Below, piece after piece: positions 2,812 through 16,911 of a stretch of DNA of 18,164 nt (position 1 is its first letter; each line of letters opens with the position of its first letter). The stretch is from Candidatus Hydrogenedentota bacterium (GTDB lineage Bacteria > Hydrogenedentota > Hydrogenedentia > Hydrogenedentiales > CAITNO01): the NCBI GenBank assembly GCA_903922535.1, contig CAIXUF010001407.1, forward strand, positions 1 through 18,164. The letters run 5' to 3'. The notes below the pieces were generated by a model that searched no databases, was not told the origin of the DNA, and worked only from the letters and a program-made list of their open reading frames with translations. The translations under genes and the position numbers were made by a program.

Positions 2812-3861
2812 TTGAAAGGAAAGACTGTCTTGAATACCGACACGCGGCTTATCAGCGGAACATTTCTCGGCATTGATCACTGGAGCGACAAAGAAGGGGC
2901 ACGATTCCAGGAAGCGATCCGGAGCTTGAACGAAGAGCATTGGCGGCAGATGGTGCGGGACATGCATGCCATCGGCATCGATACCCTGGTCTTCGGGCAG
3001 TGCTCCTGTTCACGGGACGGGTGGGGAAATGGACGCGCGTACTATCGCAGCGCCAGGCGGCCTCGTTTCGATTGGATGAAGGGCGATACGTTTGGGGCCG
3101 TGGTCGCCGAGGCGACTTCCCTGGGAATGACCATCTTCTACGGCATCGGAGATATGTACAGTCCCGATCCCTACCGCTACACCGAAGCCGTGCTGCAGGA
3201 CGCGCTGCTCACGGCGGAGGAGATCCTCGGACTGTACGGCAGCCTGCCCTCCTTTGGCGGCTGGTACTGGACCAAGGAGTATGCCCCTTCCACCCTCACC
3301 GGCCGCGATTCGCTGCGCCGCATTGTGCCGGCGCTTCGTGCGTTTCACAACTGCCCGATCATGCTGGCTCCCAATGCCGATCGCCCCATGTCGCCGACGC
3401 TGCTGGCTGATATTGATGTGGACATCGTGGCATATCAGGATTCTGTCGGGCTCGGCGTCTACCCCGACGCCCTGGGGCGGTACGCGAGGGCTGACCGGCA
3501 CCAGACGCTGCACCGCCTGCCCATTCTCTACAAGGGGCTCAGATGGTCACACGACGCCTGGCAGCCAGAGGATCAGGTGAAGAGTTACTGGCACTACTAT
3601 CCCCGGGCCCGCGGACGCACGGCGATCTGGAATGACGTAGAGATATGGGAGTTCGATCACCGCCTCTCGCTGCTGCCGGCGGAGTTTTCACGCGTGGTCA
3701 GTCAACTTGATCTCACGGCGCCGTACGTGGAAAAGCAGATCATCTATCAGTATCCTGGATTCATGTGCCACCCCGATCACCCGGTCAAGGTCGGGGGAGA
3801 GCGGGCGGTCACGCTCTATGAGCAGTACGCGATCTACCGTGAACACCTGCTAAAGGGCTAA
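2812..3861 (+). CDS. DUF4434-family TIM-barrel protein (putative glycoside hydrolase)
   Basis: The 349-residue protein opens with SGTFLGIDHW, then EEHWRQMVRDMHAIGIDTLVFGQ, the arrangement seen at the start of DUF4434 (PF14488) barrels. It continues through alternating strand/helix units including GMTIFYGIGDMYS and the conserved-looking FGGWYWTKEY, whose Glu is the best catalytic candidate. The family is placed among glycoside-hydrolase-like TIM barrels but its reaction is generally uncharacterised. No signal peptide is visible, unlike most neighbours. No ATG start exists. TTG at 2812 has AGGAAGGA five bases upstream, and TTG at 2830 has AAGGA nine bases upstream; either could be used. The gene lies 42 bp after the beta-helix gene, in the same frame as its stop codon, and converges with the repeat-protein gene with 5 bp between stops. 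Family confidence is good, function is inferred. Confidence 0.83.
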   Translation: MKGKTVLNTDTRLISGTFLGIDHWSDKEGARFQEAIRSLNEEHWRQMVRDMHAIGIDTLVFGQCSCSRDGWGNGRAYYRSARRPRFDWMKGDTFGAVVAEATSLGMTIFYGIGDMYSPDPYRYTEAVLQDALLTAEEILGLYGSLPSFGGWYWTKEYAPSTLTGRDSLRRIVPALRAFHNCPIMLAPNADRPMSPTLLADIDVDIVAYQDSVGLGVYPDALGRYARADRHQTLHRLPILYKGLRWSHDAWQPEDQVKSYWHYYPRARGRTAIWNDVEIWEFDHRLSLLPAEFSRVVSQLDLTAPYVEKQIIYQYPGFMCHPDHPVKVGGERAVTLYEQYAIYREHLLKG

Positions 3862-3866
3862 GTGTC

Positions 3867-6800
3867 TCACTGTACAACATAGATGGTGCCTCCCGAAGGA
3901 AACACCCAGTTGACGTTGTGCCCGAGATTCTGACCGCTTCCCTTCACCACGATGGTCTGCCCGTTCGTGGCGTTGTTGTCCTGCACCGTCACCCTCCGCA
4001 CGTTCTGGGTTCCCGTCACCGGGTCCAAGTACAAATAGGCCCACTGCCCTGCCGTCGTGGACAGCAACGTCGCCTGCTGAAGCGAGAGCATCTGGTTGAC
4101 GGTGTTCGTGCTGCCGACCTGGAACCGTACCGTCTTGACAACCGAGTTGCTGATGCTGAAATTCGCGTTGGTGATGTTGCCGTAGATGACGGCATCGTTG
4201 GTGCCCACGAATGCCACCGTGCTGTTTGTATCTGCCAGAAAGGAGGCGCTGTTGGAGAACGTGGTCGTCACGGCCAATGTTTTACCCGATGGGAGCTCGA
4301 GCACTCCATTCCCGAGCACGTACACCCGGTCCACCGTCACCGAAGGGGGTGTCCCGACAAAGCAATCCGTATTGGTGGGCAGCAACGTGGTTACGAGGTT
4401 GGACGCAACCGCGTTGTTGTTTATAATCAAAGTCCCGTACTGATCGCCGAGGCCGCGATCGACAACGAGAATTGTCCCGGCCGCACTCTTGGAAGTGCCC
4501 GGTCCGCCATAGACTGTAACCCCGCCGTTATCAAGCGGGTTCGGAGTGTTCTTGGTTGTGTAAGCGATATGAATGCGCCCGCCGCTGCCGCCATATTGAG
4601 CGTAGGTCCCAATTCCATTACCCCCATTCGCCGAGATGGTTCCTGCGCCCGTCAAGGTCGCGCAGTCAATCCACAGCGAACCTCCTGAAGAACCGCGAGT
4701 ATTGGAGCCGGAAGGCGTGCCGCCTGCCGAAGAAATTCCCCCATCCACGGACAATGTGCCGGTAACAACCAACTTGATCGCCCCCCCTCCGACTCCAGAG
4801 TTAGCGCCGACGCCGGTGCCACTGCCCAGGGCCGTGACATTGGAAATCGAGCCGTAGGTAACACCCGCGCCCGCTCCGGACAGTCCCCCGTAAGTCCCGG
4901 AAGTACCAGCAACGCCGGGACCCTGCACCTGCCCACGTCCGGCAGCCGTCAGCGTCCCTCCGGCGTTGATCGTGATATTGGTTGCGAAGACAGTGATCCC
5001 TTCTCCATAGGGATTGCTGACGGTTCCACCGGCACCGGGGTTGACAGAGCTGATGTTTCCATTGCATTGCACCGTGCTGTTGGTCGCAATTGTCAGCGAT
5101 GTGAACGTGAAGGTGTCTTGATTGGTGTTGGCTTCGAGGATCAACGTGACTCCGTTTGTGATGACAACGGGATTGGTGAACGTCAGACTGTTACCGAACG
5201 CGACATTGGTGTAGGGAACAAAGTTGTTCATGGTCAAACCTGTGCCCGTCGACTGTGGCAATAGGAGGGAACCCGTGAATCCCCGGTAAGCGGCCATCGT
5301 AGAGACATACGAAACATCGAGCGTACCGGTGAAATTATTCGTCACCCCGCTGATATCAATTCGCCCGCCGCCACCGTAACCATAGGCCGGAGCCGCTAAA
5401 CTCTTCGCGGAGATGCGTCCTGCGCCTTGAAGAATTCCGCCCGTGATCCAAATTGATCCTCCTGAACTGCCTGCCGAGTTCGCCCCCAAAGTCAGGGTGG
5501 CATCCGCAGATAGGGCGCCGTTAACCGTGGTTGTGCCGGAAACAATCAGTTTGATCGCGCCGCCACCCGGTTTACCGGGAGCGGCGGAACCGGCGGCGCT
5601 GCTTCCCAGCGCCGTGGGTCCGGCGGCGATTCCATAGCAGGACGCCGGAGGTCCTCCCGCTACAAGACCTGAAAGATCGAGTCTCGCACACCCTGCGCCG
5701 CCGTAGCTTGCGCCGCGGTAACAACTCCCTTTGCCCGGCCCCATACCCGTGTTATTAGCCACACTTGGAAATCCCTGGTTGTCCGCATTGATGCTGCCCC
5801 CTGCCCCGATGAGGATATTGGATGCCTGGACCGCGTACCCGATGCCGAATGGATTGCCCGCTGTTCCTCCGTTGCTTTCGTTGATGACATTCGTGTTGCC
5901 ACTGAACACGAGGTTTCCGCCGTACACCGCAACGTCCCCCGCCACAGTCAGGTTCATGCCCCCGGCCACAGCGTTGGTGGCAAAGGTCACGGTGCCTGTA
6001 TAGCCGGCCGCGAGCGTGATGGAACCCAGGTTATTGCTCACAATATTCGCCGTGCAGTTCGAGGCAACCCGGAAGTCAAAAGTGACGTCCTCCCCCGGCA
6101 ATGGGGCATGCCCTTTCGACCAATTGGCAGCCGTCGACCACGTGCCCGTGCCAATCCAATAATTCGCGTTGGTCGAGGTCGCGCCCATGCAGACCACGTA
6201 AATGCAGTTATTCAGGTTCGTCACCGACCACGTGCCGCCGACCTTGAATGCATTTGTGTCCAACGTGACATTGGCGGGATTGAGGGTAGCCGTGGCACCG
6301 CACGTGATGACCTTGAGGCTGTAATTCTTGTTGGTCTGGAATCCCAGGGTCTGCCCGAGGGAATCCATGCGGAGGACGACGACGGAGGCCGCAGTCAGTG
6401 AACCCGTCACCGAGATCTGGTCGTAATCAACGCCAGCTCCGGCTTCATTGTTGGAGATGCTGGCAATCTCGAACTTGCAGGTGCTCCCGCCGTTCCAGAT
6501 CAAATTGGCCATCGTCAGCGTTCCGCCCGCCGTACCTTCGACACCGGGAGATATTGTGCCGCCGCTGTAATTCGTCACTATACCCGATATCGTTCCATTG
6601 CCCTGAAGTGTTCCCCCGTTGACACCGACCGGGCCCGCGATTGTCCCAGTGCTCGCGAGCAACCCGCCGCTGTTGATAGTGACCGGCCCCCCGATCGTCC
6701 CGTTATTCGAGAAACTTCCGCCATTGTTGATGGTGACCAGGCCCGTGCCGATCGATCCGTCGAGCCTGAGCACGCCGTTCGAAATCGTGGTGCCGCCCGT

Positions 6801-8222
6801 GTAGGTATTCGCGCCGCTGAGTATCAACGGCGATGTTCCGCTGTTCTGCACCACCTGGCTTACATTGGGGCCAATCGCCGCGCTGATCAGCGTGTCGCCG
6901 GTGCCAGATCCCGAGTTGACAACCCGCCCTATGTTGGTAATGGATCGTGTCGAGATCGTTATGCCGTCGGCAATTGCGCTGTTGTTCTTGAGTATCAGAT
7001 CGCCGGTGCCATTCACCCCGAACGCCACGGTGAACAGCGCGGAACCGCTGGCGTTGTTATTGGCCAAAGTCGTGCCGGAGCTGTTAACGGTCAGAATCGT
7101 CGTGTCGATGGTCAGAGACGAATTCGTGCTGTTCTCGGTGATGGCTGTCACATTCGCCCCCACGCCCCCGGCGATCTGGACAGGCGCCGAACCGGTGCTC
7201 GAATTCGTGATGGAGCCGACGTTATTGACAGGCGCGGTTTGGAGGATGATGGCACCATAGGGAGCTCCGCTGCCGCTTGTGGCGAGCGTGAGATTGCCTG
7301 TTCCGGTGATGCCGCCTATAAAACGCAGATTAAGCTCGCCAGGCGTCAATACCATCAGGTCGTGATTGTAGAGAGTCACCGGCCCAGCCCATTGCTGGCC
7401 ATTCCCCGCGTTGCTGATGGTGGCAATGCCCGTGTTGTTCGAGGCGACGGCAATTGGATTCGTGTAAGAAGTTCCGCTAGGTAATCCTCCGATCAGAGTG
7501 GCGTTGGCACTGCCGCTGGTGTCGCCGATGGTGATCAGGCCGAAACCGAGGGCGTTGGTAGTGGTCATTCCCTTGAGCGTTCCCGCCTTGATGATCACAC
7601 CGCCCGTGAAGCTGTTTGCGCCGCTCAAGGTCAGTTGGGAATTGGCGCTGTTCTGCAAGACCGCAACCGTTCCGGCGCCATTGCTGATGACGCCGCTGAT
7701 GGCAACCCCACCGGTGCCTGCACCCACGTTGGCTATCGTCACGACACCCGCCACCAAGCAGCTGTTGGAGCCTGAAATCGTCAGGACATTCGTCGACGCA
7801 TTGGCTATATCCACCGAGTTGGAGAGCGCCAGCGGCGTGCTGATCGTGTCGCCGGCGCTCGTGCTGATCTGATTGATTTGCGCGTTGGCGCCATTGGTGG
7901 CGAGGATCAGCCTGGCTCCGCCGCTGGCGGCAATCGTGAACTTATGAGTATCATCGGCGTCGCCGATATTGAGAATGCCCAGCGTCCGATCATTGGTATT
8001 CACTGTGATGGTCCGTGCGGCGGTGATGTTGTTGGTGAACCACGCCGTGGTGCCAGCCCCGTCGGCCATAGTCCCGCCCGCCCACTTGCCTGTGACGCTC
8101 CAGTTGCCGGCACCGTCATTCGTCCATGATCCGCTGGCGCCCATCGCGCTGCCCGTCATGCCTGTAATCAACGCCATCAGCAGACAAGAGCCGGATAGCC
8201 ACGACTGCATCTGTTGTCTCAT
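3867..8222 (-). CDS. Large exported autotransporter-associated beta-strand repeat protein
   Basis: The start is taken at ATG 8222 (1451 residues) because GGAG at 8229-8232 sits six bases upstream; the in-frame GTG at 8234 would add four residues. A signal peptide is clear (SCLLMALITGMTGSAMGA). The first half is Gly/Asn/Thr-rich beta-solenoid sequence with autotransporter-associated strand repeats (PATR type): LTLSGANSFTGG at about residue 197 and LILSGANTYTGG at about 466, each preceded by a V..Q.S..S stretch. It continues as repeated TINNGG/TINSGG units ending in a DYDQISVTG motif near 600. A second part begins at about 688 with WIGTGTWSTAANWS and PLPGEDVTFDF, then two Gly-rich modules (listed separately). 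The C-terminus (NWVFPSGGTIYVVQ) shows no autotransporter barrel, PEP-CTERM or LPXTG-type signal. The likely role is a cell-surface or matrix structural protein. It sits 231 bp downstream of the phosphodiester glycosidase gene and probably has its own promoter. Confidence 0.88.
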   Translation of the reverse strand: MRQQMQSWLSGSCLLMALITGMTGSAMGASGSWTNDGAGNWSVTGKWAGGTMADGAGTTAWFTNNITAARTITVNTNDRTLGILNIGDADDTHKFTIAASGGARLILATNGANAQINQISTSAGDTISTPLALSNSVDIANASTNVLTISGSNSCLVAGVVTIANVGAGTGGVAISGVISNGAGTVAVLQNSANSQLTLSGANSFTGGVIIKAGTLKGMTTTNALGFGLITIGDTSGSANATLIGGLPSGTSYTNPIAVASNNTGIATISNAGNGQQWAGPVTLYNHDLMVLTPGELNLRFIGGITGTGNLTLATSGSGAPYGAIILQTAPVNNVGSITNSSTGSAPVQIAGGVGANVTAITENSTNSSLTIDTTILTVNSSGTTLANNNASGSALFTVAFGVNGTGDLILKNNSAIADGITISTRSITNIGRVVNSGSGTGDTLISAAIGPNVSQVVQNSGTSPLILSGANTYTGGTTISNGVLRLDGSIGTGLVTINNGGSFSNNGTIGGPVTINSGGLLASTGTIAGPVGVNGGTLQGNGTISGIVTNYSGGTISPGVEGTAGGTLTMANLIWNGGSTCKFEIASISNNEAGAGVDYDQISVTGSLTAASVVVLRMDSLGQTLGFQTNKNYSLKVITCGATATLNPANVTLDTNAFKVGGTWSVTNLNNCIYVVCMGATSTNANYWIGTGTWSTAANWSKGHAPLPGEDVTFDFRVASNCTANIVSNNLGSITLAAGYTGTVTFATNAVAGGMNLTVAGDVAVYGGNLVFSGNTNVINESNGGTAGNPFGIGYAVQASNILIGAGGSINADNQGFPSVANNTGMGPGKGSCYRGASYGGAGCARLDLSGLVAGGPPASCYGIAAGPTALGSSAAGSAAPGKPGGGAIKLIVSGTTTVNGALSADATLTLGANSAGSSGGSIWITGGILQGAGRISAKSLAAPAYGYGGGGRIDISGVTNNFTGTLDVSYVSTMAAYRGFTGSLLLPQSTGTGLTMNNFVPYTNVAFGNSLTFTNPVVITNGVTLILEANTNQDTFTFTSLTIATNSTVQCNGNISSVNPGAGGTVSNPYGEGITVFATNITINAGGTLTAAGRGQVQGPGVAGTSGTYGGLSGAGAGVTYGSISNVTALGSGTGVGANSGVGGGAIKLVVTGTLSVDGGISSAGGTPSGSNTRGSSGGSLWIDCATLTGAGTISANGGNGIGTYAQYGGSGGRIHIAYTTKNTPNPLDNGGVTVYGGPGTSKSAAGTILVVDRGLGDQYGTLIINNNAVASNLVTTLLPTNTDCFVGTPPSVTVDRVYVLGNGVLELPSGKTLAVTTTFSNSASFLADTNSTVAFVGTNDAVIYGNITNANFSISNSVVKTVRFQVGSTNTVNQMLSLQQATLLSTTAGQWAYLYLDPVTGTQNVRRVTVQDNNATNGQTIVVKGSGQNLGHNVNWVFPSGGTIYVVQ
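4560..5855 (-). repeat. Two tandem Gly-rich modules inside the large repeat protein
   Basis: Two related modules lie at 5346-5855 and 4560-5015. Both start with NP[FY]G.G, a five-to-seven residue strand, then ATN or ASN, I-I-AGG. Both pass through a Gly-rich loop and then GGGAIKL.V.GT..V.G..S, SSGGS[IL]WI, L.GAG.ISA and finally GG.GGRI.I. The conserved order shows an internal duplication at the protein level, separated by about 110 residues. Similar Gly-rich blocks recur in large surface proteins of several environmental phyla. Module 1 contains five Cys-containing positions not matched in module 2. Confidence 0.7.
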
Positions 8223-8234
8223 GGTGGTCTCCAC

Positions 8235-8367: not shown

Positions 8368-8511
8368 GTGGTCTTGCTAAGCCTGCAGAAGGCCGACATG
8401 TGGCGAGGGAACGCATCGAAGGCCGCGGCACTGCGGGAGATCTGTTGCAAATTCTATTGTTCCGGGGACATGGCCTTTCGCAGATTCGTGCTGCCCGGCA
8501 CAGGGGAGGCA
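8368..8511 (+). pseudogene. Decayed fragment of a paralogue of the beta-helix gene (715-2769)
   Basis: Read in the frame of 8398, this stretch aligns without gaps to residues 122-158 of the beta-helix protein. Shared residues include W-R, ASKAA, C.KF, SGD, AFR.FV and GT.EA. I count 22 identical residues of 37, and by hand 79 of 111 identical bases. Homology weakens upstream of 8398 (only an isolated Gln matches) and stops after 8511. An in-frame TAG lies at 8353-8355 and a TGA at 8554-8556, so only about 40 of 684 codons remain. It is therefore a gene remnant and not an active gene. The 3' part (from 8454) is antisense to the end of the phosphodiester glycosidase gene. Confidence 0.75.
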
Positions 8512-9446
8512 ACCCGGCCTTTCAAGGCGATGGGGCTCACTCCCTCCGTTTTCTGAAGGGTTAGAATCACCGGTAGCGGGCGAACGACCGGTATGCCCAG
8601 AATACAGCTCGATGGGCTATTCACAACACGAAGCTGTCCGTCGGGTCCCGCCAACCCCATCACGCTGCTCCCTCCGCCATCAAGGTTGACCGCACCCCGG
8701 CACCCGAGTTCAAGCATGAAGGCCCCCAATTCACGCCAACTCATTCCCTCGCTATAGCCGTCCTGTCTTCCGTCCACGACCACCAGCCAAAGCACGCTCG
8801 ATTCCTGATCGATTCCGAGAGCTGTACGCGGGGCCAAAGCAGCCGACGGGGGCGCCACATTCTTCCCCTCCTTGACGATCTGTTGCCACCCGGCCAAGCC
8901 CTCGAGGACTGACGCCTCTGCGCCTTCCGCTCCAATGAAGACCTTGCCCTCCGCCGTCATGCGGACCGGCACACATTCCTTGCCGACGGGACTCCTCACG
9001 ACACCGGAGGAAACCGCCAGGCCGTTGATATCCACAGCCTGACCTTCAAACCAGTCCCGGTTCTTCTTCCCTGCCTCATCGGGAAGACTGCACCAGGGAT
9101 TGGCGTTGATGAATGCCAGCGTCTGCGGCCCGGCGGCCAACTTCAGGGGATTCATCAGCACCGCCTCCGCAGGACCGGCGCCGTCCGGATCCGGCGCAAC
9201 GACCACAGCCGGCCGTACCCGGTTCTTTGACATGTCGACACGCAGAACATGGACACGGTTTGTGCGCGGAACACTCAATTCCTTGAGCTGATATTCAATA
9301 CCGAAGTCGGCGAGGAAGTCGGCTGTTTCCGATCTGAGGTCCCGGCCACAAGTCAACAGAAGGCCGAATGTGCAGAATGCGAGAACCCGCCGTCTCGTGC
9401 TGCGGAAGGCCGGGAGCGTCACGTTAATTCTTGAAAGCCTCTCCAT
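8454..9446 (-). CDS. Phosphodiester glycosidase family protein (NAGPA / DUF2233 domain)
   Basis: The NAGPA family includes the mammalian uncovering enzyme, which removes GlcNAc from a sugar-1-phosphodiester; bacterial members are mostly uncharacterised and exported. With ATG 9446 as residue 1 (330 aa), visible family motifs are FINANPW (about 113-119), RTALGID (207-213), VVDGRQDGYSEGMS (223-236) and NLDGGGSS (254-261), in the usual order. The N-terminus has an Arg-rich stretch then VLAFCTFGLLLTC, an export signal; LLTC would be only a weak lipobox. The ATG follows GAGAGGAAG closely. An in-frame GTG at 9596 overlaps the upstream stop (GTGA) and would add 50 residues ahead of the signal peptide, which makes it less likely. 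The last 31 residues (codons 8457-8549) lie beyond the domain and are encoded opposite the beta-helix remnant region. Confidence 0.85.
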   Translation of the reverse strand: MERLSRINVTLPAFRSTRRRVLAFCTFGLLLTCGRDLRSETADFLADFGIEYQLKELSVPRTNRVHVLRVDMSKNRVRPAVVVAPDPDGAGPAEAVLMNPLKLAAGPQTLAFINANPWCSLPDEAGKKNRDWFEGQAVDINGLAVSSGVVRSPVGKECVPVRMTAEGKVFIGAEGAEASVLEGLAGWQQIVKEGKNVAPPSAALAPRTALGIDQESSVLWLVVVDGRQDGYSEGMSWRELGAFMLELGCRGAVNLDGGGSSVMGLAGPDGQLRVVNSPSSCILGIPVVRPLPVILTLQKTEGVSPIALKGRVASPVPGSTNLRKAMSPEQ

Positions 9447-9449
9447 CTT

Positions 9450-9535
9450 CCTCTCGAAATTCAGCTTCGCCCGCACCCGACGAAGTTGGGGGTTCTCTTT
9501 TCCGGAATCGGCGAGGGCAACCGGCCCTCTCGAAA
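9450..9535. repeat. 10-bp direct repeats and hairpin in the gap before the phosphodiester glycosidase gene
   Basis: The plus-strand 10-mer CCTCTCGAAA occurs at 9450-9459 and again at 9526-9535, with 66 bp between. Within this span GAGGGC (9513-9518) and GCCCTC (9524-9529) form a 6-bp stem with a 5-base loop. No T-run follows on either strand, so it is not a standard terminator. It lies in the 146-bp gap between the GH42-like stop codon and ATG 9446 and could be a leader structure or an old small insertion. Confidence 0.35.
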
Positions 9536-9592
9536 GAGGTAGAACAGGGAATGCCAATGAAAGAATTGTCCTTTCAAGACAGATCACGTTCC

Positions 9593-12500
9593 TCACGGCT
9601 GCAACAGCAAGACATCGCCCTCGGCAAGGTGCGGCAGGACCACAGCAAAGCCGTCGGCAGCGGGTTCCACTTTCAGCTCGTGGCCACTTTCTGCGGATAT
9701 CACCTTGGAGGGCATCTTCCCCGAACGAACCACTATCCGGACGTTTTCCTGCGGCACCAGCGTGCCGCCGCTATATCCCCAGTTCACAAGTGAAACCGCC
9801 AGTCTTCCCGTGTTTCGGTTCTTCAAGAGCACGCCTTCCACAACGGGCTGAGACGGTTCAACGAAGGGCTTTACGCCCGCCTGTCGAACCGGCGCGGCGA
9901 CGGCGGCTCTCTTGTCGGCGCGAAAATCCACGGCGGTGTTGAAGTTGGTTTTCAGAACATCGGCGCTGTACTCCAACCCCGCATAAAAACCCACAACCCA
10001 GGCCGCCCCTTTTCCGTAGCTGTGCCGAATGGCCGCCACCCCGCCATCCGCGTACTTCGCGACCGTCTCCGCACCGTCGACCGGATCCAGCACCTCGCGC
10101 CCCACCCCGAGAGCAAAGTCTCCGGCCATGGCCGGTGTACCCTTTACTGCAGCGCCCGGCGGCGGTTCTTTGACTGCGATAAAGGGGAGAAGTGCTCCGG
10201 ATTTGTAGCGGTGAACGTCACCCCAGAATTCCACGTCCTTCCGGCTCTTCAGGCCGAGGATGGGCCGTAGAATCTCCAATGGTTCGGCGGCCTCGTCCCG
10301 CGCAAGACCACCGCCGCTGGTGTAGAGAACGCCTCCCGCCTCAACCCACTTGGCCAGTTTCGCGGCGGCTGTGCGCCGGATATGGGAGCCGCTGACGTAG
10401 ATGACCTTGTAGCCCGACAGATCCTCAGTCTCAAGCAGTCCCTCGTCCAGCGGGTCCACGGCCATATGCTCATGCGAAAGCGCCTGGTAGATCCACTTTC
10501 CATTCTCCCAGGATGCAGTGTTCTCGAAGAATTCGGACGTGCGCGGCCGTACGACTGCCACCTGGGCGGGAAACGCCGGAATGGAGTCGTAGGTGACGTC
10601 CTCCGCCGCCGCGATCAGCCTGGCCGCCCGGCTCACGTCGCAGAGGCACCATGGCTTGCCGGCAAAGGAATCGCCCTTCCACCACTCGGGCCCATAGGTG
10701 TACCAGCACAGGGTTTGCGCATTCCGGCTTATGGCGGCGAGCGCCCGCTGGATGGGCGCGCCCCGGTGCGGTTTGATGTAGATGCCGAACCGCACCCCCA
10801 TCTTCCCCGAAAGGATGCGCCCGACGTCGCACAGGTAACTGTCCCATGGCCATACGCGGGGATCACGGTTGGAGGTCTCATACATGAAACCGTTGTCGGC
10901 GTAGCGGTAGAAGTCAAAGAAGTCCAGACTGTGGCCGCCCAACAAGAAAGTGTTGGCGCGCAGCGCGTAACTGTAGACCCATGGCTGGCGCGCTTCCGGG
11001 CTGTTCGCCTGCCCTTCCGCCAGAGCCTTTCGTTTCTTGTCATTCTCCTCTTTCAACGCGTCGCGCAAGCCGGAAAACAATTGAGCCGTCGCGTCATTGA
11101 TGAAGCGTCGCGAACAATAGTAGAGCAGATTTTGCCCGCGCTCCGAGAGGCGGGATTTGGGTGCGGCCCCTGCCGGAGCAGCGTCCGCAGCCCCGGACTC
11201 CAACTCGTCGGCGGTCGGCTCTGCTGTCGTTCCTGCGCCGACTTCCGGGTATTTCTTTCTGCCCTCTGCCGCCTTCTTCTCTTTCTGCTGCTCGTCCCAC
11301 GTCTTCGCGAAATAGCCGTAGGTGGACCGGACATCGTCCCAGCTCGGGGCGCCGAAGTCCGCCAGAGTCAGCCCCATCCCCTTTACATATTCCTGGAATG
11401 CCTTGCGGCAGTACGGACAACATCCCTGATGATTTTTTCCCTCCGGCGACCAGTCGAAGACCGTGCCGATTTCATCGTGAGTCATCAACCAATACTCGTC
11501 AACACCCGAGCCACGCACCTTGGTGGCCATCAACTGCGACGCCAGATCGCGCATGGCCACGACATTGTTCGTGCGGTCCGGATAGAAGGGGCAACCGGCG
11601 CCCGGCGGGGGCGGCGGCCGGTCCTTCCGTGTGCGCGGCACCAACCAGCCCGCACCGCCGGAAACCTGAATCCGGCGGAAGTCGTTGCCAATGCCCTGAC
11701 CATTCTTGACCATGTCCAGGACGAAATCCGGCCCCGCCCGGAAACCGTTGACACCCAACTGCCGCAGCGTCCGGCACTCGGCCAGCTCCGTCTCCCGACT
11801 GCTCGTGCGAACGCCATAGCCGGCGCCAGAGCCATAGCCGCCGCAGTCGGTTTCGATGGCGTAGCGCTTCGGCACCGGCCTCTTGGCCCATGGCTGCGCT
11901 TCCAACATCTCCGCCCGGAGCGTCGAATACAGCGACAGCCCGCCCAGCTCTTTGAGGAACTCGGGAGTCGCGCTGCCGTCGGCGCCCAGGTTGCCGAAGG
12001 GAATGACGATTCCAACGGTCGGCCCATCGTCGCCGCGCTCGGCAAACCGCTTGAGCACGTTTGTGCCTGAAGCGCACTCGAACTCCACGGTGACGTTGTG
12101 CAATTTCTGCCCCTTCGTCTCTGTACCGGCACGGCCTTCGATGGTCACCGTCAGGAAGAGATGGGAACGGCGGAATTTGAAGGCCGACAGCGGAACGGCC
12201 GGCGACCACACGTCGCGGTGCAACCAGGAGTCATTACTGCTGTTTCCCCCTTCAAGCATGGCCTCCGGAGAGGCATCCTCCGCGTCATCCACGGGATGGA
12301 TGGCTTTGCCGTGCGCCTTTACAGGCTTTGCCGCATGACCCCGCGTTTTCGGGGATTGTCTTGGTACTGCCGAAAATTCGCCCTTCGAAACGCCGCCGCC
12401 CACCCCTTCTCCGCCCCACCGCCAATGGATCTTTACGTCCTCGTCCGGCTCCATGGCTGTTACGCGGGCACGCAAAGTGATATCCGTACCCGTCGCGTGC

Positions 12501-12724
12501 GCCAAGGGCAGGACGGAGAGCAGAAACAAGATAGCAATCGAACTTCTTGAGAAAGGCAACGGCAGAGCCTTGAAACCGTTCAGAAGACCGGAGTGGCCTT
12601 TGGCGGGAATCGAAGCTGTAGCGACGCATGTCCCCATGCGTCGATGTAGATGTCGCCGGATGGTGACATCCGGCGCTACACCTTCTTTGCACGTTTCCGT
12701 CCTGTTCCGATGGAATGACATCAT
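9593..12724 (-). CDS. Large exported GH42-like glycoside hydrolase-type protein with GATase-like domain
   Basis: The 1043-residue frame starts with ATG overlapping the upstream stop by 4 bp (ATGA). The export signal core (IAILFLLSVLPLAHA) only begins at residue 63, and residues 16-36 are encoded by a palindromic repeat. A later start such as TTG 12559, with AAGG eight bases upstream, is therefore possible. A beta domain (about 80-275) is followed by a TIM-barrel-like part with THDEIG (Glu 418, acid/base candidate) and GCCPYCRKAFQEY at 434-446, like the Cys cluster and helix of GH42 proteins. A YETSNRDP segment (Glu 616) follows. Residues about 700-850 (AQVAVVRP, YKVIYVSGS, LAKWVEAGGVLYTSGGG) resemble the GATase-like trimerisation domain of GH42. 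The C-terminus is beta-rich. Low-complexity inserts occur at about 104-165 and 478-526. Hydrolase activity is inferred; the family match is distant. Confidence 0.8.
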   Translation of the reverse strand: MMSFHRNRTETCKEGVAPDVTIRRHLHRRMGTCVATASIPAKGHSGLLNGFKALPLPFSRSSIAILFLLSVLPLAHATGTDITLRARVTAMEPDEDVKIHWRWGGEGVGGGVSKGEFSAVPRQSPKTRGHAAKPVKAHGKAIHPVDDAEDASPEAMLEGGNSSNDSWLHRDVWSPAVPLSAFKFRRSHLFLTVTIEGRAGTETKGQKLHNVTVEFECASGTNVLKRFAERGDDGPTVGIVIPFGNLGADGSATPEFLKELGGLSLYSTLRAEMLEAQPWAKRPVPKRYAIETDCGGYGSGAGYGVRTSSRETELAECRTLRQLGVNGFRAGPDFVLDMVKNGQGIGNDFRRIQVSGGAGWLVPRTRKDRPPPPPGAGCPFYPDRTNNVVAMRDLASQLMATKVRGSGVDEYWLMTHDEIGTVFDWSPEGKNHQGCCPYCRKAFQEYVKGMGLTLADFGAPSWDDVRSTYGYFAKTWDEQQKEKKAAEGRKKYPEVGAGTTAEPTADELESGAADAAPAGAAPKSRLSERGQNLLYYCSRRFINDATAQLFSGLRDALKEENDKKRKALAEGQANSPEARQPWVYSYALRANTFLLGGHSLDFFDFYRYADNGFMYETSNRDPRVWPWDSYLCDVGRILSGKMGVRFGIYIKPHRGAPIQRALAAISRNAQTLCWYTYGPEWWKGDSFAGKPWCLCDVSRAARLIAAAEDVTYDSIPAFPAQVAVVRPRTSEFFENTASWENGKWIYQALSHEHMAVDPLDEGLLETEDLSGYKVIYVSGSHIRRTAAAKLAKWVEAGGVLYTSGGGLARDEAAEPLEILRPILGLKSRKDVEFWGDVHRYKSGALLPFIAVKEPPPGAAVKGTPAMAGDFALGVGREVLDPVDGAETVAKYADGGVAAIRHSYGKGAAWVVGFYAGLEYSADVLKTNFNTAVDFRADKRAAVAAPVRQAGVKPFVEPSQPVVEGVLLKNRNTGRLAVSLVNWGYSGGTLVPQENVRIVVRSGKMPSKVISAESGHELKVEPAADGFAVVLPHLAEGDVLLLQP
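12617..12680. repeat. REPIN-like double palindrome with short terminal inverted repeats
   Basis: The 64-bp element begins TGTAGCG and ends CGCTACA, a perfect 7-bp terminal inverted repeat. Inside are two hairpins, each with a 9-bp perfect stem and 4-base loop: CGACGCATG (12622-12630) with CATGCGTCG (12635-12643), and CGCCGGATG (12654-12662) with CATCCGGCG (12667-12675). A 10-base linker joins them. Two REP-like hairpins framed by inverted ends is the architecture of REPIN elements mobilised by RAYT-type transposases, but only one copy is present in this window. It lies within the predicted 5' coding end of the GH42-like gene, codons about 16-36. Confidence 0.75.
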
Positions 12725-15700
12725 TCGTCCTTCGTTTTCTTAACGGCGGCTGCCATTCCGTCGGCGGCCTCGTATTTCACTCCGACCCGGCTGATGAAGA
12801 CGGCGCGATTCGTGACGGGGACTTCGTCGTCCACGTACAGGATGTGCGGCGGCGCGGCCAGAATGACCTTGGTCAGTTTGGCCGGATAGGAGACCCGCGC
12901 GATTCCATAATCACGAAACTGACCGGGTGACTTGGGCGCCACCGGCGCTTTTGGCATATCTTCCGGCGGGGTCGGCGGGGGCGTCACCGACAGCCGAGGT
13001 TCTTCCGGCGCCACGGGAGGCGCTGCGTCTTTGTCGCCCTTCTTCACCGCTCGGTCATAGGCGGTCTTCGCCTGATTGTAGCTAACGAGACTCTTCTTGT
13101 AGGCTGCCACGGCGGCGGTGTGGTCCTTCTGTTCTTTGTCATAAGCCGCCTTGGCCTTCCTGTACTCCGCCTGCTTCTCCTCGTGAGCCTGTTTCGCATC
13201 GTCATACGCCTTCTTCACGGAAGGAAATGCCTCCATCGCTTTCTCATAAAGGGCCGTGGCCTTCTGATAATCCGCCAGCTGCTGTCGCGATTCCGGAGTG
13301 TTCTCCGGCCACCATTCCGTGCTGCTGGGCAGATACGCAGTCAAGTCCGTGGCCGGAAATCGGCCCGGAGCCGCTACGGTCAGTGTCCGCCAGCCGTCAA
13401 AGCTGATATACGAGTCGCCCCGGTTATCGCTCGCATTGCAGGAGCCGGAATACTGATTGCCGCAGGACGTCCATATCCGGCCCTCGGCATCCACCAGTTC
13501 GAACATCACGCGACCCCAGCCCCCGTTTCCCTTCACGCGCACGGTGAACGCCTCTACGCGGTCTTTGAGAACAACGGGTTGGGCCAGCTTCAACTCGACG
13601 TATCGTTCCAACAGCTTGCGAGGGTCCGGGTCGTCCTTGAGGGCCAGCTCCACCGCTCCGGCTCCATCCTCCTGCACAACTTCCACGGCAAAGTCACCCT
13701 TGATGCGAGGATAGTCCCAATTGTTTTCCATGGTTCGGTTCGTCGAAGGTTCCACGGCAAATACGCCAGCCTTGTCGAACTCGACGATCGGGCTTCCGCC
13801 GTCTGTCTTCTCTTCCAACGGCTTTCGTGCCGCAACCCCTTCAATCGTTGTCCCCGTGACGTAAAGCGGTGCGTCTGTGACAGGAACGATCAGGCGCTCA
13901 TCCTTGACGGCTGTCGGGAGCTGATTACCGTACACGTCGTTCACGGCGGGATGACCGCCCTTGACGACCAGCGTCACATCCTGCCGGCCGCGCACGCACC
14001 AGACCGGGTATACGTGGTCTCCGGCGGGCGTCTTGAAATCGAGGATATGCAGCGACGTGCTGTCAGGGGTGATTTTTCCGGCATACTTGGCCTGGTCGAG
14101 AACCTGCGTCAGCCACGCATACATGGGATAGGCCGGCTTGGGGTTCATCTCGGGTTCACGGAAACAGAGTCCCACCTGCCCCCAATTGCTCCAACGATAG
14201 TCGTCTGTGCAGTCGCGGATGCAACCCGCCGCACACATGCGCTGCACACCATTGGCCAGGGCCAGCATGGCTTCGCGCGTTTGAATGACCGCCTGCTTAT
14301 GGAGACTGAGATTGGCCGGGCTTGTCCCGTGATACAGAGCTTCGGTGGTCCAGATCGGCTTGTCCTCGTATCCGTACTTCGCCTTGGCCCGCTTCCAGTC
14401 CTGCAGTATGCCCAGCAGGCACATCCAATCCGGCTGCCGCTCAGGTTCCCGCATGAAGTTGGCCACCTCGGTGCCGAACACATCGAAGGCATCCTTCGGC
14501 ATTCCGCGTTTCATGAATTCCGCGCCCACGCCGGGGTAGTCGTTGATGAGGCATATCTTCGCCTGAGGATCCGCCTTCTTGACGGCCTGACAATATTTCA
14601 CCACGTGGGCAAACTGCGCGTCGATGCCCGCCTTCTCCTTATCGGGCATTGCGTAGGGCTCGCCACCAAAGAAGACGCTGAAATGTCGGAGGAATGTGTC
14701 CGAACTGCGTGACTCGTGCAGAACCTTGTAAGTCCGGTCCTGCCCCTTTGCCGGATTCTTCGCGAAGTCGCGAATTCCGGGCGCTATGGTCTCCTCAAAG
14801 ACCTTCTCGTCCCACCATCCTTCTTTTCGCTGGTACCCGTTGGGGAGATTACGAATCGTGTAGGTTATCTTGTAATCGTCATAGAGCTGTTCGGCGCTCA
14901 GAGTGGAGCCTCGGGCGCGTTCCTGCGCGCTTCCGCCGTAAGTCCAGCGCCAGCCTCCCTTGTTGATCAGGGTCGCGATGTCCTTCACTTGCCGGTCATG
15001 CCGCGCATACGACGCATGCGGCCACCAGAATTCCCAGATCCCAAAGGGTGAATCGGCCATCGCCTTGCGCGTGTCCGGCGCCAGCACGGCGTAGGTGGTC
15101 CGATACACTTGCACCGGTTTGCCATCGCACTCAATCCCGATTTCCACGTCGAACCAACCGCGTTTCTTCCGCTCGGCCGGCATGACCTTGATCGGGAAGT
15201 CCCGGCTCTCGCCTTTCTTGAGCGTGATATTATTCTCAACCGTCCATTCCGACCTGAGCGGGCTCCCCTCCTCCACCGTTCCCGGTCCGGCACTGCGGGC
15301 ATACAGCCGTCCTTTGAATTCGCCGTCCAGCCGGTTGACCAGGTTGATGGTCAGCACGGGCTCCTGCGTCTCGTGAAAGACGTTTCCGGGTTCGCCGAGC
15401 ACGTAGGCAAATCCCACCGGCGCCCGCTCGGCAGTCGCTGATACAATCACGACAGAACTGGGCAGCCCCACCGGCACGCGCCCGAACTCATTGGGATCGG
15501 GCAGATTGTGGAGATCCTCCTTGTCGCGCGTGAACTCGAACTGCGTGTCTTCCGAAAACCATGCCGAGGCGGCGCGGGCCACCGGGATTCGCAAGTGGTA
15601 CAACCATCCCGCTTTGCCATCCGACAATTTCACCGGTATGCGGGATTGGACATACACCGACTCGCCTCCGGCCATAACATCGGGCACAGGAACCACGTCC

Positions 15701-16638
15701 TCCTCCATGGGCCCGCCCCACCCCACGCACTTCCCGTAACAGACGGTCATCCGGGGCACGTGGTTCGGTATCTGGCGCGAGTAAGCCAGCACGTGGAGCG
15801 CCTCATAACCGTTGCCGGGAACCGTGCCGACAGGCCGGCTGACGTTGGAAGGAATCACGTAGTAACCCCACTTCAAACGCCGTGAAAAGTCCGAGCCCGC
15901 CATCGCGAGCCGCACGTCCACCGCCTTGTCCCCGATCATAATCGGCACGCCGTCCCCCGTCGTCTTACCGGACGGCACCGAGGCTGGATCGATCGCCGCG
16001 CCGGGATTCGGCTTCTTCACGCCGGTTGAATCTGTCAAACAAGCGTCAAGGTTCACAGGAGACATGCCCGGGGGAAGGGTGGTCACTTTCACCGCCTTGA
16101 GGCGAGCCCCTTTCTGCAGGGTGACGACGAGCGGCTGGTCAACCGGGGCGGAAAATGAAGCGTTCCCTTCCTCGCTGGTTCCCGCCAGCGCGATGCTGAG
16201 ACCATCGCCCATTCTTTGTATTGAAAAGGGAACCCATGCGGATGTGGCGCCATTGGTCAAGGCGATCGCGGTCTTCTTTCCCGTCTTCCCGGCACCGAGG
16301 GTGAGTGTAAGGCTCTTCTCGCCCTTGACGAGAGAGACCGAGCCGCCGGGGAAAGCCAGGGCGGCCCCGGAGGCTGGCAATGACACTTCCCCTGTAAGGA
16401 TGTAGTAAGCTCCGCTCCAAGGTTGCTTCACGTCAAAGGTTGCGGCTTCTTTGGCATCCGCGGCACCAAGTTCGCCGGGCCCCCACGGCTGTTTCGTGTA
16501 TTCGGCGGGAAACGACGCCATACGGCTATCCGGCGCCGCGACTGGCGCTGCTAACGCCCACATTCCCCCACCACAGGCGGCGGATACTACGAGAACTCCA
16601 CAGAGACGAGAGATCAATCTACGGCTTGCTGAGCACAT
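12721..16638 (-). CDS. Very large exported clan GH-A-like protein with alanine-heptad/proline stalk insert
   Basis: ATG 16638 is chosen because AGGAAGG (16648-16654) sits nine bases upstream; ATG 16647 touches that ribosome site directly. The 1305-residue product has a signal peptide (RLCGVLVVSAACGGGMWALAAPVAA). Residues about 40-520 are beta-sandwich-like. A TIM-barrel-like part begins at SPFGIWEFWW (about 530) and includes HESRSSD (Glu 642) and DKPIWTTEALYHG (Glu 766). The latter resembles the strand-7 nucleophile motif of clan GH-A (GH39/GH5-type) enzymes, and Glu 642 is the acid/base candidate. C-terminal sandwich domains follow from about 870. The last one is interrupted at 1122-1239 by a long Ala/Tyr heptad helix and a proline-rich arm, then resumes at YGIARVSYPAKLTKVIL. 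The stop overlaps the next gene's ATG by 4 bp. Glycosidase activity is inferred, and no characterised homologue is recognised. Confidence 0.85.
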   Translation of the reverse strand: MCSASRRLISRLCGVLVVSAACGGGMWALAAPVAAPDSRMASFPAEYTKQPWGPGELGAADAKEAATFDVKQPWSGAYYILTGEVSLPASGAALAFPGGSVSLVKGEKSLTLTLGAGKTGKKTAIALTNGATSAWVPFSIQRMGDGLSIALAGTSEEGNASFSAPVDQPLVVTLQKGARLKAVKVTTLPPGMSPVNLDACLTDSTGVKKPNPGAAIDPASVPSGKTTGDGVPIMIGDKAVDVRLAMAGSDFSRRLKWGYYVIPSNVSRPVGTVPGNGYEALHVLAYSRQIPNHVPRMTVCYGKCVGWGGPMEEDVVPVPDVMAGGESVYVQSRIPVKLSDGKAGWLYHLRIPVARAASAWFSEDTQFEFTRDKEDLHNLPDPNEFGRVPVGLPSSVVIVSATAERAPVGFAYVLGEPGNVFHETQEPVLTINLVNRLDGEFKGRLYARSAGPGTVEEGSPLRSEWTVENNITLKKGESRDFPIKVMPAERKKRGWFDVEIGIECDGKPVQVYRTTYAVLAPDTRKAMADSPFGIWEFWWPHASYARHDRQVKDIATLINKGGWRWTYGGSAQERARGSTLSAEQLYDDYKITYTIRNLPNGYQRKEGWWDEKVFEETIAPGIRDFAKNPAKGQDRTYKVLHESRSSDTFLRHFSVFFGGEPYAMPDKEKAGIDAQFAHVVKYCQAVKKADPQAKICLINDYPGVGAEFMKRGMPKDAFDVFGTEVANFMREPERQPDWMCLLGILQDWKRAKAKYGYEDKPIWTTEALYHGTSPANLSLHKQAVIQTREAMLALANGVQRMCAAGCIRDCTDDYRWSNWGQVGLCFREPEMNPKPAYPMYAWLTQVLDQAKYAGKITPDSTSLHILDFKTPAGDHVYPVWCVRGRQDVTLVVKGGHPAVNDVYGNQLPTAVKDERLIVPVTDAPLYVTGTTIEGVAARKPLEEKTDGGSPIVEFDKAGVFAVEPSTNRTMENNWDYPRIKGDFAVEVVQEDGAGAVELALKDDPDPRKLLERYVELKLAQPVVLKDRVEAFTVRVKGNGGWGRVMFELVDAEGRIWTSCGNQYSGSCNASDNRGDSYISFDGWRTLTVAAPGRFPATDLTAYLPSSTEWWPENTPESRQQLADYQKATALYEKAMEAFPSVKKAYDDAKQAHEEKQAEYRKAKAAYDKEQKDHTAAVAAYKKSLVSYNQAKTAYDRAVKKGDKDAAPPVAPEEPRLSVTPPPTPPEDMPKAPVAPKSPGQFRDYGIARVSYPAKLTKVILAAPPHILYVDDEVPVTNRAVFISRVGVKYEAADGMAAAVKKTKDE
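12922..13275 (-). other. Ala-rich heptad helix plus polyproline arm inserted in a beta-sandwich
   Basis: Codons 13275 to 13039 encode residues 1122-1200. Every seventh residue is aromatic or His for eleven consecutive heptads: Y, Y, F, Y, H, Y, Y, H, Y, Y, Y. Ala often occupies the position before it and the third position of the heptad. One Pro follows the Phe, so the first two heptads may form a separate helix or kink. A six-residue linker (GDKDAA) leads to 33 residues (codons 13020-12922) with 13 prolines, eight of them on one phase of a three-residue repeat. Sandwich-like sequence lies on both sides, so the insert must leave and return to the same domain. Confidence 0.75.
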
Positions 16639-16911
16639 CCTGACCATCCTTCCTGCTGTATTTCCCCGGACAGTGGCCCGCGCGTTATAAGAAGCGGCAA
16701 CCTCTAGCGGCTACTTGCATGGTAAAGGTAACACATGGGGGTGAGACAGAACTTCCCGCTTCTGTTCTCTTTCTTCCCATATCTTCAGGTTGTCTGCCCT
16801 TGAGAGGCCAGCCCATCCGCGCCGCATCACCACCGCTCCACCTCGTCAATAACCACTGAATCGCCATCGGCGCGCAGGCATTCATGACCCCCCGTGTTGT
16901 CCGGCTCAACG
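16639..16911 (-). other. Intergenic region between beta-propeller gene and large GH-like gene
   Basis: This 273-bp gap holds the AGGAAGG ribosome site (16648-16654) and a TATAAC (complement of 16684-16689) that could be a -10 box, without a matching -35. A 76-residue frame starting at 16915 overlaps the propeller stop as ATGA, but it has no recognisable domain. In another minus-strand frame, bases 16916 down to 16827 read as coding-like sequence rich in GC at third positions and end with DSVVIDEVERW and TGA. That could be a frameshifted tail or a leftover gene end. No terminator hairpin with a T-run was found. Confidence 0.3.

Follow-up and report, generated by a model that had tools for sequence, protein, structure and literature searches.

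Rods in which an alpha-helix is paired with a polyproline II (PPII) arm have so far been known from one adhesin family and from miniprotein design. In the PPalpha miniproteins, as in the pancreatic-polypeptide fold, heptad Tyr residues pack between prolines. Both are built from one helix, one turn and one arm, and the miniproteins (PPalpha and PPalpha-Tyr; 5lo2, 5lo3, 6gwx) are designed and about 35 residues long. In the streptococcal adhesin antigen I/II (AgI/II), the A3 helix is intertwined with the P1 PPII repeat to form a 155 Å fibre that is partly stabilised by Pro-aromatic contacts, as described in excerpts of PMC3707005 (A3VP1 structure 3iox/3ipk; Larson 2010). In antigen I/II the two arms are separate A and P repeats with an entire V domain between them, and the protein is anchored to the cell wall. 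A further case, in extracts of PMC8616854, is the bacterial protein Tuna (CASP14 T1087), in which an N-terminal PPII segment buttresses a helix and which AlphaFold2 (AF2) predicted correctly. The first-pass annotation of the DNA analysed here, a window of 18,164 nucleotides, had proposed a stalk of this type in a glycosidase-like protein and had called its unbroken aromatic register seemingly undescribed in such a context; the packing principle is already known, but the papers listed by our literature searches include no account of an alpha/PPII rod inside an enzyme. We put the probability at roughly 0.8 that the insert is an intramolecular A/P-type alpha/PPII hairpin rod in a loop of a CBM-like sandwich; its most likely role is as a stand-off.

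The host ORF encodes 1308 amino acids on the reverse strand (12721..16647; all features of the insert and host domains below lie on this strand), and the ORF list, its homologues and the fold of a relative, P0014, identify it as a GH39/PslG-like glycosidase homologue whose C-terminal domain resembles a CBM. Its N-terminus looks like a signal peptide when judged by eye, and the protein is predicted to be secreted. A structure search with P0014 shows a (beta/alpha)8 fold closest to GH39, in clan GH-A; in the host this barrel covers approximately residues 528–934 (13846..15066), boundaries that were transferred by eye from P0014 via conserved columns. The barrel shares its fold with GH39 (5jvk) and PslG, and the C-terminal domain, a CBM-related beta-sandwich, shares its fold with CBM-type jelly rolls (FlaA1 9cyn, CBM6/11/27), with identities of 6–17% among the matches listed. 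Pfam GH39 gave no match on the host ORF at E 0.1. The Glu residues in HESRSS and WTTEALYH are conserved in at least 90% of 42 alignment rows, and we take them to be the two putative catalytic Glu residues after beta4 and beta7. On the basis of the AF2 model and structure search, the sandwich is split by the insert into a first part (approximately residues 951–1115, 13303..13797) and a second part (approximately residues 1256–1295, 12763..12882). The nearest named relatives of the host come from a Verrucomicrobia MAG and a PVC-group MAG.

The insert opens with a helix arm, residues 1118–1202 (13042..13296; AF2 model residues 214–298), which is predicted to be one continuous alpha-helix. Along it runs a ladder of 11 Tyr, Phe and His residues at heptad spacing, from residue 1127 to 1197 (13057..13269): Y1127, Y1134, F1141, Y1148, H1155, Y1162, Y1169, H1176, Y1183, Y1190 and Y1197. 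The ladder accounts for every aromatic or His residue of the 85-residue arm (11/11), all in one heptad position. When the arm was shuffled 100,000 times, the longest spacing-7 run was 6, which occurred in 4 shuffles, and a run of 11 never arose. The turn GDKDAA follows (residues 1204–1209, 13021..13038) and is, from the sequence and AF2 model, the presumed tip of the rod. The next 33 residues form the proline arm (residues 1210–1242, 12922..13020), presumed to be PPII, with 13 Pro that occupy 8 of the 11 positions of one three-residue phase, a modest bias when taken alone (p 0.024 by shuffling). Finally, residues 1243–1255 (12883..12921), assigned from the family alignment, AF2 and shuffling, form the end of the return arm and run into the next strand. 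The eleven consecutive heptads, the GDKDAA turn and the in-phase prolines had all been claimed earlier and are read directly in the translation, and the lengths computed then are correct (79 × 1.5 Å = 118 Å; 39 × 3.1 Å = 121 Å). The span given with them, 12922..13275, is slightly narrower than the modelled limits, which are 13042–13296 for the helix and 12883–13041 for the return arm.

AF2 was run on host residues 905–1308 and on full-length P0014. The host model has a mean pLDDT of 90.2, with a single helix at 1118–1202 and a non-helical return arm at 1203–1255 (pLDDT about 87–98), and strands of the CBM-like sandwich border the insert arms on both sides. Ten-residue pLDDT means over model residues 291–350, the end of the helix and the return arm, are 95, 95, 96, 98, 96 and 87; weak blocks in the same model have values of 50–59. 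The P0014 model (pTM 0.88) places a helix at 977–1019 and a return at 1020–1050 with pLDDT 90–93, and its N-terminus is at about 30. The helix of P0014 is shorter by 42 residues, or six heptads, and the two returns differ by 22 residues; the difference expected for a PPII arm that matches the helix is 42 × 1.5/3.1 = 20.3 residues. The models thus show a confident single helix with an ordered non-helical return arm between sandwich strands. From chain closure we infer that the arms pair in antiparallel contact with Tyr-Pro stacking between them, and the return arm would have PPII geometry.

The homologue set comprises at least 80 proteins, including the window's own, from three protein searches, the third with a query lacking the insert; a fragment, P0071, was dropped as it has no residues in the region, leaving 79 usable members. 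Bounded by the motifs WWPxNTPE and YPxKLTK, the insert reaches about 135 residues in the longest case and is missing altogether in some members. A hairpin insert is present at the same loop in 54 of the 79 members, by a loose criterion (an outbound stretch of 30 or more residues with three or more aromatics, followed by a return with two or more Pro) and equally by a stricter heptad criterion, and the rest have short loops, stubs or other inserts. Short loops are found in the distant relatives P0074–P0080 and in P0034, P0037, P0040, P0041, P0072, P0073 and others. On a midpoint-rooted FastTree of the flanking domains, a minimum of five changes is needed to explain presence and absence, with the insert absent at the root. 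The insert is gained and lost at one loop. A few members carry a degenerate insert, and rod length varies more than twofold. At the same loop P0049, which adjoins relatives without the hairpin (P0034, P0037), has an insert of about 87 residues, in which an Ala-rich stretch of 77 lacks aromatics and has almost no Pro; a pair of helices may have taken the place of the hairpin.

The pattern seen in the window recurs across the 54 inserts: there are 268 aromatic pairs at spacing 7 against 31.4 in shuffled sequences (z 47) and 200 Pro pairs at spacing 3 against 98.6 (z 14), counts that come from related and hence not independent sequences. Over 50 inserts, an aromatic stands at heptad position 0 in 87% of cases; position 4 is aliphatic (45%) or basic (32%), position 3 is Ala (52%), and the other positions are mostly Ala, charged or polar. 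The helix arms thus have one narrow seam, as a single PPII partner needs. P0014 searched at E 1e-60 against the orders of two genomes, G002 (17 genomes) and G001 (386 genomes), gave only one distant match each beyond G002 and G001 (27% and 33% identity), and a 71-aa hairpin used as a tblastn query had no match at E 1 in phages or plasmids. A regular expression (four spaced aromatics plus PxxPxxP) run over the window and loci L001–L037 matched, apart from the host ORF, just the relative found in L002/L004/L006; the scan is not a sensitive test because it missed the member in L001.

If a PPII arm is to match a helix along its whole length, the return should grow with an ideal slope of 0.484 residues per helix residue. 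With turns placed automatically at the first Gly or Pro to occur well beyond the final aromatic, the 54 inserts give a slope of 0.483 ± 0.055 (r 0.77), and omitting P0028, P0033, P0039 and P0055 gives 0.527 ± 0.035 (r 0.91, N 50). The turns of P0012, P0019 and P0052 were judged misplaced and were reset to match sister sequences after the first result had been seen; the slope is then 0.497 ± 0.052 (r 0.80) for all 54 inserts and 0.539 ± 0.027 (r 0.95) without the same four. A split by Pro likelihood gives 0.452 ± 0.041 (r 0.84; phylogenetically corrected r 0.26, p 0.028; 54 inserts). After phylogenetic correction, the coupling depends on turn placement: automatic turns give r 0.12 (p 0.19, N 54) or r 0.25 (p 0.04, N 50), and reset turns r 0.38 (p 0.004, N 54) or r 0.69 (0 of 20,000 permutations, N 50). 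When clades are collapsed, the rank correlation is 0.75 for 37 groups, 0.69 for 28, 0.59 for 23 and 0.47 (p 0.10) for 13. On these data the coupling appears strong across the family, and correlated change of the arms along branches is suggestive, not proven. The expectation that the arms change length together thus mostly held, but with exceptions: P0011/P0012 have seven fewer helix residues with an unchanged return arm, and P0028, P0033, P0047 and P0055 do not fit.

Two other measures of arm length were rejected. A first split of 42 proteins gave a slope of 0.13 (r 0.27), with the turn misplaced in P0020, P0028, P0033 and P0035. A measure based on the last aromatic (N 55) gave a slope of 0.288, r 0.46 and a phylogenetically corrected r of −0.35. 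We put the negative value down to mis-picked chain ends, which shift residues between arms of fixed total; this happens where a single substitution breaks the chain (e.g., P0023, P0045) or where the chain is followed beyond the helix (P0063).

A profile of 74 positions, A4, was built from the hairpins of ten short relatives and matched 30 distinct PDB sequences at E up to 10. The best were the adhesin 6tzl (E 0.0003), AgI/II 3iox/3ipk (0.007), GbpC 5uqz (0.007) and antigen I/II 6e36 (0.014); eight PPalpha-type miniprotein sequences (E 0.34–0.73) and 1jmm matched weakly, and the others included STI-1, septin, arfaptin and designed coiled coils. Of the 30 matches, 28 reach no further than profile position 51, so the evidence concerns the helix half more than the Pro arm. 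With the window's own insert as a single sequence, the 25 PDB matches listed were mainly designed TPRs and included no antigen I/II chain, so the proposed search with the insert alone succeeded only in the form of the ten-hairpin profile. The NCBIfam antigen I/II model NF033804 matches 4 of the 10 excised hairpins (best E 3.1e-5 with 21.5 bits, far under the cut-off of 1500) and gave no match at E 1 to the window's ORF or insert. The absence of A/P stalks from the structure-search match lists is uninformative because the sandwich or barrel fills those lists. A sub-threshold Pfam match to DUF3987 covers host residues 1151–1227 (model positions 60–132, E 0.013; E 0.055 on the whole ORF), and that family may hold a similar helix and Pro arm.

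The insert and the antigen I/II stalk have in common an Ala-rich helix with a Pro-rich arm of the same chain on a secreted protein; here the arm is presumably in PPII form, with Pro-aromatic contacts to the helix, and the two would form a similarly long rod. In the host, however, the arms are joined by a bare six-residue turn, with no V domain between them and no NF033804 match above cut-off, and the hairpin is a loop insertion in the CBM-like domain of an enzyme homologue. It would work like an A/P stalk, but it is not an antigen I/II protein. In contrast to the designed PPalpha miniproteins, the inserts of the host family, roughly 57–135 residues, are natural, are embedded in a large protein and form a graded length series. 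Tuna shares a presumed PPII segment beside a helix in a bacterial protein, but its segment, in the account available, is an N-terminal extension beside a histidine-zipper coiled coil rather than a hairpin rod in an enzyme homologue.

The predictions, the homologous inserts and the ten-hairpin profile together support the proposed intramolecular A/P-type stalk. The hairpin rod would grow from one loop of the C-terminal CBM-like sandwich of the secreted GH39-like glycosidase homologue, its single Ala/Lys-rich helix running out about 125 Å. A Lys/Gly/Asp-rich turn would close the rod and a Pro-x-x arm return in PPII form. The ladder, which lines one face of the helix, would pack on this arm in the manner of the antigen I/II A/P stalk and of the PPalpha-Tyr miniproteins. 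As its most likely role we infer a rigid stand-off spacer, fixing the distance between the enzyme and the target of its tip or sugar-binding end. The length of such a spacer would be tunable, and some lineages could do without it. The family, whose rods at this one loop vary from absent to about 12 nm long, would provide a natural experiment on how Tyr-Pro packing scales; it could also supply protein engineers with rigid, monomeric spacers and help to test what use a sugar enzyme has for an arm.

The main rival to the spacer role is a functional tip, in which the same hairpin serves as a binding or docking arm and its Lys/Gly-rich end holds on to an anionic polysaccharide, to a cell surface or to another protein. 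Most of the 54 inserts have a turn rich in Lys, Gly and Asp. The V domain of antigen I/II has a binding role. The stalk there separates a V domain from the anchored end, according to the excerpt available of PMC6586375. However, there is no domain at the tip of the insert, and tip identity among 13 long forms (50%) is hardly above that of the rest of the insert (42–49%); the more than twofold variation in rod length and the five or more changes in presence also count against this reading. We regard the binding arm as possible, at well short of even odds.

An intermolecular coiled coil, with the aromatic heptads pairing the helices of two molecules and the proline arm serving as a loose return linker, would make equal use of a heptad repeat, and designed CC-Type2 coiled coils are among the profile matches. 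But the return arm is modelled with high confidence rather than as disorder in a monomer, there is one seam, and the aromatics are flanked by Ala and Lys or aliphatic residues, not by Leu, Ile or Val. A loose linker would require neither a return length that scales with the helix nor the retained Pro spacing of 3, and we consider this arrangement improbable.

Still less likely, and in our view very unlikely, is a low-complexity, largely disordered insertion under little constraint, whose A/K/P content is driven by composition. The insert is indeed less conserved than its surroundings (among the 13 long forms, 42% identity in the helix arm and 49% in the return arm against 71% in the barrel, and 62–71% over the flanking domains), and its repeated gain or loss and the few degenerate members would fit such a reading. 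The spacing-7 signal (z 47), the aromatic or His residues at 129 of the 140 filled ladder positions in the long forms, and the confidence of both models argue against it; in particular, the return arm of the monomer model, with pLDDT about 87–98, is not the confidently disordered segment that would have spoken against a rod. Comparison with the homologue in L002 gives dN/dS values of 0.22/1.35 for the helix arm, 0.24/0.99 for the return arm and 0.13/0.86 for the barrel, i.e., ratios of about 0.16, 0.24 and 0.15, with 0.10–0.12 for the sandwich parts. Both arms are thus under purifying selection, with the return arm the least constrained.

Tetratricopeptide-type helical repeats can be dismissed, since the sub-threshold Pfam TPR matches (best E 0.013, 16.6 bits against a cut-off of 23.5), the designed TPRs that top the single-sequence PDB search and the label "tetratricopeptide (TPR) repeat protein" given to homologue P0013 by one source are set against a period of 7, not the 34 of helix-turn-helix repeats, and one unbroken 85-residue helix in place of helix pairs. 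The label of P0013 is perhaps owed to the aromatic heptads.

Similar short inserts are seen in some proteins of the sialate-O-acetylesterase family (SASA) from Verrucomicrobia. Over 387 genomes of the phylum of G001, the A4 profile matched at least 34 places in at least 27 genomes at E 0.001 or better, 31 of them in open frames of 499–604 aa, and SASA (PF03629) was found in all five of the matched frames that were scanned. Among 32 fetched loci, 29 have a frame with a WYQGE motif, and 10 of these frames (nine genes, as L043 = L083) show 4–5 consecutive spacing-7 aromatics upstream of WYQGE, followed by Pro-x-x-Pro. With 10 of 29 frames having it, the ladder characterises some SASA proteins but not the family as a whole; it occurs in 6 of 11 loci chosen by profile versus 4 of 18 chosen only by an interrupted SASA match. 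The ladder genes (L039, L040, L041, L043, L044, L045, L094, L097, L099) look much like the short hairpins of the host family, and PF03629 was confirmed for L039, L040, L043 and L044. Alignments suggest that 7kmm, 9h4u and 9ega have over 100 other residues at the SASA insert place, and 8f9q about 20. A tentative extension, with the odds against it, treats the alpha/PPII hairpin as a portable rod, monomeric and modular, in surface loops of unrelated Verrucomicrobia-type carbohydrate-active proteins, GH39-like and, independently or by transfer, some SASA proteins. On this view it would act as a molecular ruler of adjustable length, growing by nearly whole units that each add one heptad on the way out and about one proline triplet on the way back. 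Should the SASA inserts have the same fold, the motif would be a building block that recurs and not just a peculiarity of adhesins.

In the window, the end of the host ORF overlaps the next ORF (9593–12724) by four bases, 12721–12724, the host stop coinciding with the start of that ORF, which suggests translational coupling of the two. The product of ORF 9593–12724 has a weak C-terminal match to a GH42 trimerisation domain. The other ORFs encode a NAGPA phosphodiester-glycosidase protein (E 1e-22; 8454–9596, reverse strand), a 1455-aa protein with PATR repeats (PF12951, passenger-associated transport repeat, E 1e-10; 3867–8234, reverse strand) and a DUF4434 protein (E 3e-26; 2812–3861, forward strand). 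By gene content, the window looks like a secreted polysaccharide-processing cluster.
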